DNA of 64,000 nt from Burkholderiaceae bacterium. GTDB taxonomy: Bacteria > Pseudomonadota > Gammaproteobacteria > Burkholderiales > Burkholderiaceae_A. Under the pieces are notes generated by a model, which was given only the letters and a program-made list of their open reading frames with translations, made no database searches and was not told where the DNA came from. A program made the translations under genes and the position numbers. This document shows, piece after piece, positions 6,067 to 10,292 of this stretch. Position 1 is the stretch's first letter. Each line of letters begins with the position of its first letter. The DNA lies in assembly GCA_004214155.1 (NCBI GenBank), contig SGYQ01000002.1:81429-145428 (forward strand), in the 5' to 3' direction.

Positions 6067-7176
6067 ATGAGAAACACGCTTAAACTTGAAAAAATTTCCT
6101 TCGGTTACCTAAATAAAAAGAATTCATCTGTTAACCCTGTCTTGGATAACTTTGAGCTGACCTTAAAAGAGGGAGAAATTGGGATCGTACTCGGACCATC
6201 TGGTGGTGGCAAGACAACAATTTTGAGAGCTATTGCGGGATTTTTAGATCCAATTCAAGGTACGATTAAGATAGACGGTCGTGATGTTTTTAATTCCCAG
6301 AATAAATCTAGCTATATACCTTCAGAGCAACGAAATGTGGGAATGGTGTTTCAAGATTTTGCCCTATTCCCGCATTTAAATGTAAAAGAAAACATAATAT
6401 TTGCCTTGACAAAAGGTAGATTACGGTTTGTTACTGAGGAAAATATAGATCGTGTAGAAAAAATGCTATCACTGACTGGCATGACAAATTTTGCAGAAAG
6501 TAGTATCCAGAATTTATCTGGGGGTCAAAAACAACGTGTCGCGTTAGCACGTGCATTAGCGCCTTCTCCAAAGCTTATTTTGTTTGATGAACCGTTTTCA
6601 AATCTAGATCCTGCTCTAAGACAGGCACTAGTTAAAGATGTTAGAGAAATGCTAAAGGCAACAAGCACAACAGCCTTGTTTGTTACACATGATCAGTTGG
6701 AAGCATTTAGCCTTGGCGACAGGGTTGGAATTTTAAAAGATGGGCAACTTCAGCAATGGGATTCACCGTATCGTATTTACCATGAACCAAAAAATATAGA
6801 TATTGCAAAATTTATCGGGCAGGGAGCGCTGATAAATGGATTTCAGGATGGAGATACTGTGACTACGGCTTTGGGTAAGTTGACATTGAAAAATAATTTT
6901 ATGTCTACTCGGAAACTTTCTGAAAAACAAGTTAAAGTTTTAATTAGACCAGATGACATCATCCACGATGATGAAAGCAACATGTCTGCCACGGTCGTTA
7001 AGAAAATATTTCGAGGCGCAGATTTTCTTTACACCCTAAAGCTTCCAACTGAGGAAGAAGTTTTGTCATTTGTTCCTAGCCATCATGACCATCCACTTCA
7101 CAAACCTATTGGAATAAGACTCGAGGTTGATCATGTTGTTACATTCGATTCAACCGAACCGAGTTTTACCTTTTAA
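6067..7176 (+). CDS. fbpC: ABC transporter ATP-binding protein, FbpC type
   Basis: Cytoplasmic ATPase expected to drive the adjacent FbpB-like permease. Of 369 aa, the nucleotide-binding domain is residues 1-240: Walker A GPSGGGKTT (about 43-51), Q-loop in VFQDFALFPH, signature LSGGQKQR, Walker B LILFDEPFSNLD and H-loop FVTHDQLEAF. The C-terminal ~120 residues are a TOBE-like regulatory domain (KVLIRPDDI). Its last four bases overlap the end of the convergent fdhD. Iron is the likely substrate, but other anions or cations are handled by the same CUT/Fbp ATPase families. Confidence 0.88.
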   Translation: MRNTLKLEKISFGYLNKKNSSVNPVLDNFELTLKEGEIGIVLGPSGGGKTTILRAIAGFLDPIQGTIKIDGRDVFNSQNKSSYIPSEQRNVGMVFQDFALFPHLNVKENIIFALTKGRLRFVTEENIDRVEKMLSLTGMTNFAESSIQNLSGGQKQRVALARALAPSPKLILFDEPFSNLDPALRQALVKDVREMLKATSTTALFVTHDQLEAFSLGDRVGILKDGQLQQWDSPYRIYHEPKNIDIAKFIGQGALINGFQDGDTVTTALGKLTLKNNFMSTRKLSEKQVKVLIRPDDIIHDDESNMSATVVKKIFRGADFLYTLKLPTEEEVLSFVPSHHDHPLHKPIGIRLEVDHVVTFDSTEPSFTF

Positions 7177-8667: not shown

Positions 8668-9447
8668 TCAAGATTTGATCATTTTTTTAAACACTTGAGC
8701 TACCTTGCTTGAATCTTCAGATACTAGCAATCGCATTAACACAACCTTATCATCGTATGTACTTGAGTTGTCCAACATACTTACATCAATTTTCGGTTTT
8801 TTCGGTTTAAGCTTTGCTTTCATGTCAGCTAGTGACTTGCCCTCCTCTAACGCTATTTCTCCATCAGGCAGTGGTTCGTCAGGTTCTTGCTTAATTTCTT
8901 CCACCACTTTTTTAGGTGCATCTATGCGGCCATCTGGATAAATAATTGTTCCGTCAGCCTTGATTAACTTACCATCGGGATAGCGTATGCTACCATCCGG
9001 GTATTCGATTCGACCATCAGGATGAACAATAGCCCCATCTGGCCTCTTTACTGGGCCACTACTCGCAGACGGTATAGCCCTTCCAGTCTCATCGAATTCC
9101 ATAACCTTACCGTCAGGCTGTGGACCACCAATACCCGGTGGAGGCCCCACTACAATTGCGGGCGCCTTAATTCTTTTAGCACGATCAGTAATCATTTTTC
9201 TTCTTAATTGATCAGCATTAAGTTTTAAAGGCTTCCTCTCCTTTCTTGGCTGGGGAAATAAGCTCAATACTTTTGATCGAAGGTAAATTAATGCGAAGCC
9301 AAGAACAACCATGCCCATGAATCCTGCAAAATCAGGAGCTAAAAAAACATCTGGATATTGGAGGGCAAAGGCAAAGTACCCCGTCATAACAAGGTAAAAC
9401 GCAAAATTAAAAATTAATCGATAAATTTGATGCTTAAACAGGTACAC
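8668..9447 (-). CDS. Unrecognised membrane-anchored protein with tandem PDG heptads
   Basis: I do not recognise a named family. The 259-aa protein opens with two hydrophobic helices (about residues 10-29 and 33-53), then a basic linker. A proline/glycine-rich stretch at about 96-160 contains six consecutive seven-residue units of the form (Y/H)PDGxIx, for example YPDGSIR, with further PDG copies on either side. The remainder is an acidic linker and a Lys-rich tail (DVSMLDNSSTYDDKVVLMR). Such PDG repeats suggest an exposed beta-strand ladder, as in the TCP10_C/G-box class; that is inference. The start is GTG at 9445-9447, one base after the stop of the upstream gene, so the two are surely cotranscribed. 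Confidence 0.75.
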   Translation of the reverse strand: MYLFKHQIYRLIFNFAFYLVMTGYFAFALQYPDVFLAPDFAGFMGMVVLGFALIYLRSKVLSLFPQPRKERKPLKLNADQLRRKMITDRAKRIKAPAIVVGPPPGIGGPQPDGKVMEFDETGRAIPSASSGPVKRPDGAIVHPDGRIEYPDGSIRYPDGKLIKADGTIIYPDGRIDAPKKVVEEIKQEPDEPLPDGEIALEEGKSLADMKAKLKPKKPKIDVSMLDNSSTYDDKVVLMRLLVSEDSSKVAQVFKKMIKS

Positions 9448-9448
9448 C

Positions 9449-10045
9449 TTAAACCCCAGTTGGTCTCAACCCTTCAGAGTCTTCCGTGGCATTCTCATCC
9501 GTCCCGCCACTTTCAACCCCGCTATTATTTCTTGATTTTATACTATTTTCAATTTGCTGTATTCGATCACAATCTCGAAGAACATCTACTTGTAGCCCAG
9601 AAGCAACCATTCCAGCCTGTGCAGCACACACCGATTTTAGCCTTTCTGTCCACTGATTCATTTCTAAAGCTTTTTCGAATGCCTTAGCGGTTTCAGGATC
9701 TTCTTTGCCTTTAACCAATAACCTCAAAGCTCCGATAGCTAAGTACCGCTCAGGGCTTTCGTTCTTTGCATTTTTTGCTGCATTTTCAACATCTGAAAGA
9801 GCCAATCCATTAGATAAGGCAGATTTAACTGCTTCCAACTCTTTTTCTTTAGCGATTAGTTGTTCTAAACGGATAGGGCTAAGACTCGAATCTGAAGAGG
9901 GGCGTTTTACAGGACCCGTAGCAAGCTTTTCCAACTGTACCTCTAATTCACTAATCTCGGTCATCTGAAGGTAAATAAAAGTTCCAGACCCAACCACCGC
10001 AACGCCCAGAAGAATTTCAATAATTAAACGTATCCATTTTTTCAT
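9449..10045 (-). CDS. Unrecognised bitopic membrane protein, helical periplasmic or cytoplasmic domain
   Basis: 198 aa. One N-terminal transmembrane helix (about residues 6-27, LIIEILLGVAVVGSGTFIYL) is followed by a short coiled-coil-like stretch (TEISELEVQLEKLATG). An alpha-helical region at about 75-160 has TPR/SEL1-like spacing (SPERYLAIGALRLL, DPETAKAFEKALEMNQW). The tail is Ser/Glu/Asn-rich and probably disordered. It lies one base upstream of the PDG-repeat gene and very likely pairs with it. No enzymatic motif is visible. The following ~250 bases (10046-10292) hold no gene that I can support. Confidence 0.7.
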   Translation of the reverse strand: MKKWIRLIIEILLGVAVVGSGTFIYLQMTEISELEVQLEKLATGPVKRPSSDSSLSPIRLEQLIAKEKELEAVKSALSNGLALSDVENAAKNAKNESPERYLAIGALRLLVKGKEDPETAKAFEKALEMNQWTERLKSVCAAQAGMVASGLQVDVLRDCDRIQQIENSIKSRNNSGVESGGTDENATEDSEGLRPTGV

Positions 10046-10292
10046 AATCTTTATATCGACAAAATGTTAAGGCCCTTGAATTTACAAAGTAATTTATTGG
10101 TTTTTGACAGCAAAACGAGGATGATCTCAAACTTAATATTACACAACCGGCAGTTTCTTACCCGATAATTAAGAAACCTGATCTAATCGGAAAGAAATTG
10201 CCTCATGGAGGACGAATCTGAGATAATCCAACACATTACGATATGGTACACCCACATCTCTCTTCCAGCAAAAACTGCACCAAAGCGTAATT

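Follow-up and report, generated by a model that had tools for sequence, protein, structure and literature searches.

A gene pair outside the flagellar clusters

The window, i.e. the whole stretch of 64,000 nucleotides analysed during this work, carries on its minus strand two adjacent genes of the open reading frame list, which we call B (9449..10045; 198 aa, ATG start) and A (8668..9447; 259 aa, GTG start). Base 9448 is the sole base lying between them, in agreement with an earlier note on this DNA, and both the pair and its gene order, with B directly upstream of A, are constant in the seven congeners in which A is kept. From N- to C-terminus, A consists of a membrane hairpin of two helices, a basic stretch, a run of PDG heptads, an acidic linker and a tail resembling that of the flagellar protein FliF. 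The locus is found outside any flagellar cluster and is surrounded by thiamine and molybdenum-cofactor genes. Reading of the frames between positions 7173 and 18063 of the window places the pair among genes resembling mobA, fdhD and soxYZ and a run of thiamine synthesis genes. The names of the groups compared (TMED82, TMED41, AG-913-B20, AH-736-P17, AH-287-N17) point to uncultured marine Betaproteobacteria. Since most of their genomes are draft or single-cell assemblies, the absences reported below are only as reliable as genome completeness.

Hydropathy analysis of B indicates one N-terminal membrane helix; the remaining, mostly helical part, which we infer to be periplasmic, contains two invariant cysteines. 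Its AlphaFold model is helical and of low confidence (mean pLDDT 57); no Pfam family was found for B and no significant fold match was obtained for this model. The bitopic character attributed to B in the earlier note holds and its helical character is predicted; for the TPR-like nature suggested there, no significant TPR match was obtained.

Membrane hairpin and PDG heptads of A

The two membrane helices of A (9259..9417, minus strand; approximately residues 11-63) are supported jointly by hydropathy and by the AlphaFold helices 2-30 and 40-63, as anticipated. The six DG-centred heptads that follow (8920..9045, minus strand; residues 135-176) read, in order, RPDGAIV, HPDGRIE, YPDGSIR, YPDGKLI, KADGTII and YPDGRID. 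They are consecutive, as initially described, but not uniformly of the (Y/H)PDG form, since one of the six has ADG in place of PDG and the first residues are R, H, Y, Y, K and Y. None of 100,000 shuffled versions of A gave a run of six DG at a period of seven, the longest run reaching three, and the units share a mean nucleotide identity of only 54%, which implies that the repeat is kept at the protein level and does not result from a recent DNA tandem. The number of heptads, their flanks and the gene order are the same in all seven congeners holding A, with no sign of the random variation in repeat number that had been envisaged.

AlphaFold predicts one short beta strand in each heptad (pLDDT of about 78-88) within a model of A whose overall confidence is low (mean pLDDT 62). 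The closest Pfam family is Tcp10_C (PF07202), with 18.4 bits and an E-value of 0.0017, and the second Foldseek match is the SAS-4 TCP domain (4by2; E 0.06, probability 0.82), which is not significant. The TCP10_C/G-box domains of CPAP/SAS-4 share with A regular DG-centred repeats and predicted short strands; however, they belong to centriole proteins, a context that A lacks. The heptad segment may therefore be G-box-like in fold, and the beta ladder proposed earlier is plausible, although membership in TCP10_C is rejected with a score well under the gathering cut-off of 36 bits. From sequence comparison with other members of the family (see below), the heptads are best read as a linker or spacer peculiar to one genus.

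A FliF-like tail at the C-terminus of A

When A was used as a query against related genomes, its orthologues were retrieved together with the C-terminus of a protein of ~710 aa, found in the same genome and in its relatives. This protein is FliF, the gene following it being fliG. The part common to both proteins corresponds to their last ~58 residues, which end in ...YDDKVVLMRLLVSEDSSKVAQVFKKMIKS in A and in ...YDDKVVLMRLLVQEDEGKVALVLKNMMKTS in FliF. In A, it spans positions 8671..8844 on the minus strand (residues 202-259), matches the same profile as the FliF of its own genome and is presumed to be a FliG_N-binding element. Identity between A and this FliF reaches 66% in the tail alignment and 54% over residues 174-258 in pairwise comparison (E 4.9e-21), and the tail profile also matches the C-terminal ends of canonical FliF proteins across the class, with E-values from 1e-6 to 1e-4. 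AlphaFold places two helices in the tail of A (231-242 and 246-258) with modest confidence. Structure work cited in PMC10655999 describes the FliG N-terminal domain as folding around two helices near the FliF C-terminus. A comparison of the tail profile with solved FliF-FliG structures at the sequence level gave no match. Judged by these similarities, the tail of A is homologous to the C-terminal tail through which the MS-ring protein FliF binds FliG. Both proteins are anchored in the membrane and have their tail on the cytoplasmic side, but FliF is a protein of ~710 aa with YscJ/FliF ring domains, whereas A has 259 aa and coexists with a full FliF; indeed, Pfam finds none of the ring domains (PF01514, PF08345) in A up to an E-value of 10.

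The tail is also the best conserved region of A, with 84-96% identity among congeners, compared with values falling to 53-55% in the PDG region and to 22% in the acidic linker. Its dN is about 0.1 or less, with a dS that is saturated in wider comparisons, a substitution pattern that places it under strong purifying selection. This selection, the lack of a ring domain and the constant architecture led us to reject the view of A as a FliF fragment or a pseudogene. The earlier note, whose observations on the membrane helices and PDG repeats are confirmed, had missed this C-terminus.

Among 369 genomes across the class, the tail profile matched only FliF outside this family. An apparent separate tail protein of 244 aa in G357 was rejected, as it is a FliF interrupted by unreadable bases. 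A keyword search of the literature, of partial coverage, returned no report of a protein other than FliF with a FliF tail.

Tail proteins of the sister genus

The family also includes a sister genus, in which this tail is carried by differently built membrane proteins, all devoid of PDG heptads. Their frames are of ~255-260 aa (L132), 312 aa (L133) and 408 aa (L131), or longer, from 418 to 443 aa (L013-L015, L135), and the one of G016 is frameshifted in the assembly. Homologues of B are present in the sister-genus genomes having tail proteins, at ~1.5-7 kb from the tail gene in G010, G014, G016, G018 and G023. Since these tail proteins do without heptads, the PDG run appears as one spacer among several, the common element being the tail together with B.

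At five of these loci (L131, L132, L133, L134, L135), the gene immediately preceding that of the tail protein encodes a small secreted protein; both of those tested belong to Pfam Adhesin_E, and some loci encode another small secreted protein after the tail protein. The FliF proteins of the sister genus (L008, L009, L010) contain GPDGxP repeats in the linker from the second membrane helix to the tail, which recall the PDG spacer of A.

Co-occurrence with one type of FliF

The genomes of the family possess one of two unrelated types of FliF, or none that could be detected. A tail protein, frameshifted in one case, is found in all ten genomes with the matching type (G000, G001, G003, G004, G007, G010, G014, G016, G018, G023) and in none of the five with the unrelated type (G008, G012, G013, G015, G020). 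The contrast holds within the sister genus alone (5/5 vs 0/3), and the distribution of B follows the same pattern. Neither the tail protein nor B was found in G009 and G011, two nearly complete genomes with no detectable FliF. A also occurs in two congeners of 70% and 85% completeness in which no FliF was detected. When the tail of the unrelated FliF was searched for in the five genomes concerned, it was found in FliF only in four of them and nowhere in G020, where FliF has yet another tail.

Each family genome having FliG contains one FliG gene, and a second FliG as the target of A is rejected, none having been found. Within a genus, FliF and the tail protein have core residues in common, namely VVLM in one genus and VAL[I/L]RF in the other. 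Over 34 core columns, tail similarity is 0.69 within the own genus vs 0.63 and 0.54 across genera, a modest difference resting on few diagnostic columns.

The unrelated FliF with its different tail occurs in close relatives (G008, G012, G013, G015, G020; L114-L118), even within one genus, and FliG, where found in these genomes, has diverged. This suggests that the flagellar system has been replaced in these relatives.

A candidate late promoter

At 10054..10079 on the minus strand, the B-A pair has a candidate FliA (sigma-28) promoter with the sequence TCAAG-N14-GTCGATA. Upstream of B, TCAAG-N14-TGTCGAT is preserved in the seven congeners amid diverging surroundings, and fliA is present. In three congeners, a giant flagellin gene is preceded at ~99-105 bases by a similar TCAAG-N14-GACGAT; in the same genome as the pair, the distance of such a site to a giant flagellin gene is ~99 bases. 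These features suggest a late flagellar expression of the pair through FliA. In a genome-wide survey, the motif showed no enrichment relative to its reversed control, and the promoter assignment therefore draws on position and conservation only. In addition, the site nearly abuts the start codon of B, which would leave almost no leader, and no such motif was seen upstream of B in the sister genus.

A probable flagellar motor accessory and its alternatives

The contact between FliF and FliG is treated as exclusive, with one ring protein, one tail and one rotor subunit. We consider it likely, on the grounds of sequence, that A and B form an accessory of the flagellar motor, binding FliG in the manner of FliF near the MS/C-ring junction; this accessory would probably be a previously undescribed one. 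A flagellar role can thus be proposed for a gene pair to which the earlier note could assign none. The homology of the tail, its purifying selection, the pairing of A with B, the co-occurrence with one FliF type, the single FliG and the promoter-like site all support this accessory. In such a complex, the hairpin would anchor A in the inner membrane and the PDG heptads would act as a stiff cytoplasmic spacer, while the two-helix tail would take the site of the FliF tail on the FliG N-terminal domain. Anchored beside A, B might mechanically link the assembly to the periplasmic side. The two proteins would join late in assembly and provide extra anchoring or bracing of FliG, presumably near the MS/C-ring junction, and this bracing could strengthen or widen the rotor of motors driving giant-flagellin filaments.

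Two-helix membrane accessories at the MS/C-ring junction do exist, as exemplified by FlgV, the nearest known analogue of A, which is found in Campylobacterota and is likewise a two-helix membrane protein. In the high-torque motor of Helicobacter pylori, FlgV is reported to form a ring at this junction, level with FliG_N, and to act on FliF through its membrane helices, with a GFFxG motif in the first one (PMC10655999). This motif is absent by eye from the hairpin of A. FlgV is reported to have few conserved residues and, as it is described in PMC10655999, is not known to carry a FliF-like tail, which sets it apart from A.

The main rival explanation is that A is a FliG decoy limiting flagellar number: once filament production has begun, it would prevent further C rings from forming by keeping free FliG bound to the membrane. 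It fits most of the same data, since the same tail, the same single FliG and a possible late expression through FliA are expected equally well, and A indeed lacks the domains needed to build a ring. However, a decoy could do without a conserved spacer and a conserved periplasmic partner, whereas B is kept with the tail protein in both genera, and we regard this explanation as unlikely. Less probable still is a placement or docking factor, in which A and B would recruit FliG, and with it the nascent rotor, to a particular place in the membrane, for instance the pole. FipA and FlhF play such a part for FliF: they too work at the membrane on the flagellar base at an early stage, but their targets are FlhF/FliF, and neither is known to carry a FliF tail. 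A membrane anchor combined with a FliG-type ligand would suit such a factor, and the polar placement factor FipA is known in other bacteria (PMC11620751); but a late FliA-type promoter would act after placement has occurred, and our searches revealed no similarity of A or B to any placement family.

We find it highly improbable that A is a non-flagellar membrane protein whose FliF tail was copied for another purpose or is a by-product of duplication. Its location outside flagellar clusters would agree with this origin, and partial duplications of the fliF tail do occur. Indeed, G281 (contig C131, L027/L033) encodes between fliF and fliG a one-helix protein of 158 aa with a FliF-type tail. No intact counterpart of this protein is found elsewhere in the genus, where G691 retains only a decayed copy of the tail immediately downstream of fliF, so that the 158-aa protein looks like a sporadic partial duplication of fliF. 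By contrast, the tail of A is under strong purifying selection, and the tail proteins co-occur with one FliF type only and are absent from the nearly complete, FliF-less G009 and G011.

If the proposed accessory role is true, a second class of membrane proteins, retained along with the flagellum and a partner gene, carries the FliF tail and FliG would have other clients, with a bearing on how C rings vary in size and torque between species. More speculatively, and in our view doubtfully, the FliG ring of this lineage of marine betaproteobacteria would be partly held by separate FliF-tail membrane proteins and not by FliF, which would free C-ring size from FliF number; the anchors (PDG ladder, coiled, multi-helix) would then be interchangeable and only the tail kept. 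Besides, a FliF tail in the absence of a FliF ring offers a simple sequence handle to find similar accessories elsewhere.

Finally, the accessory role, if true, bears on the bracing of motors that turn filaments made of giant flagellins, which, by analogy, could demand more torque. The thick filaments of two marine gammaproteobacteria are built of giant flagellins (PMC6248924). Contig C29 of G000 (L136, L144, L151) contains four giant flagellin frames of 1131-1883 aa plus one of ordinary size, and similar flagellin gene sets are found in its congeners.
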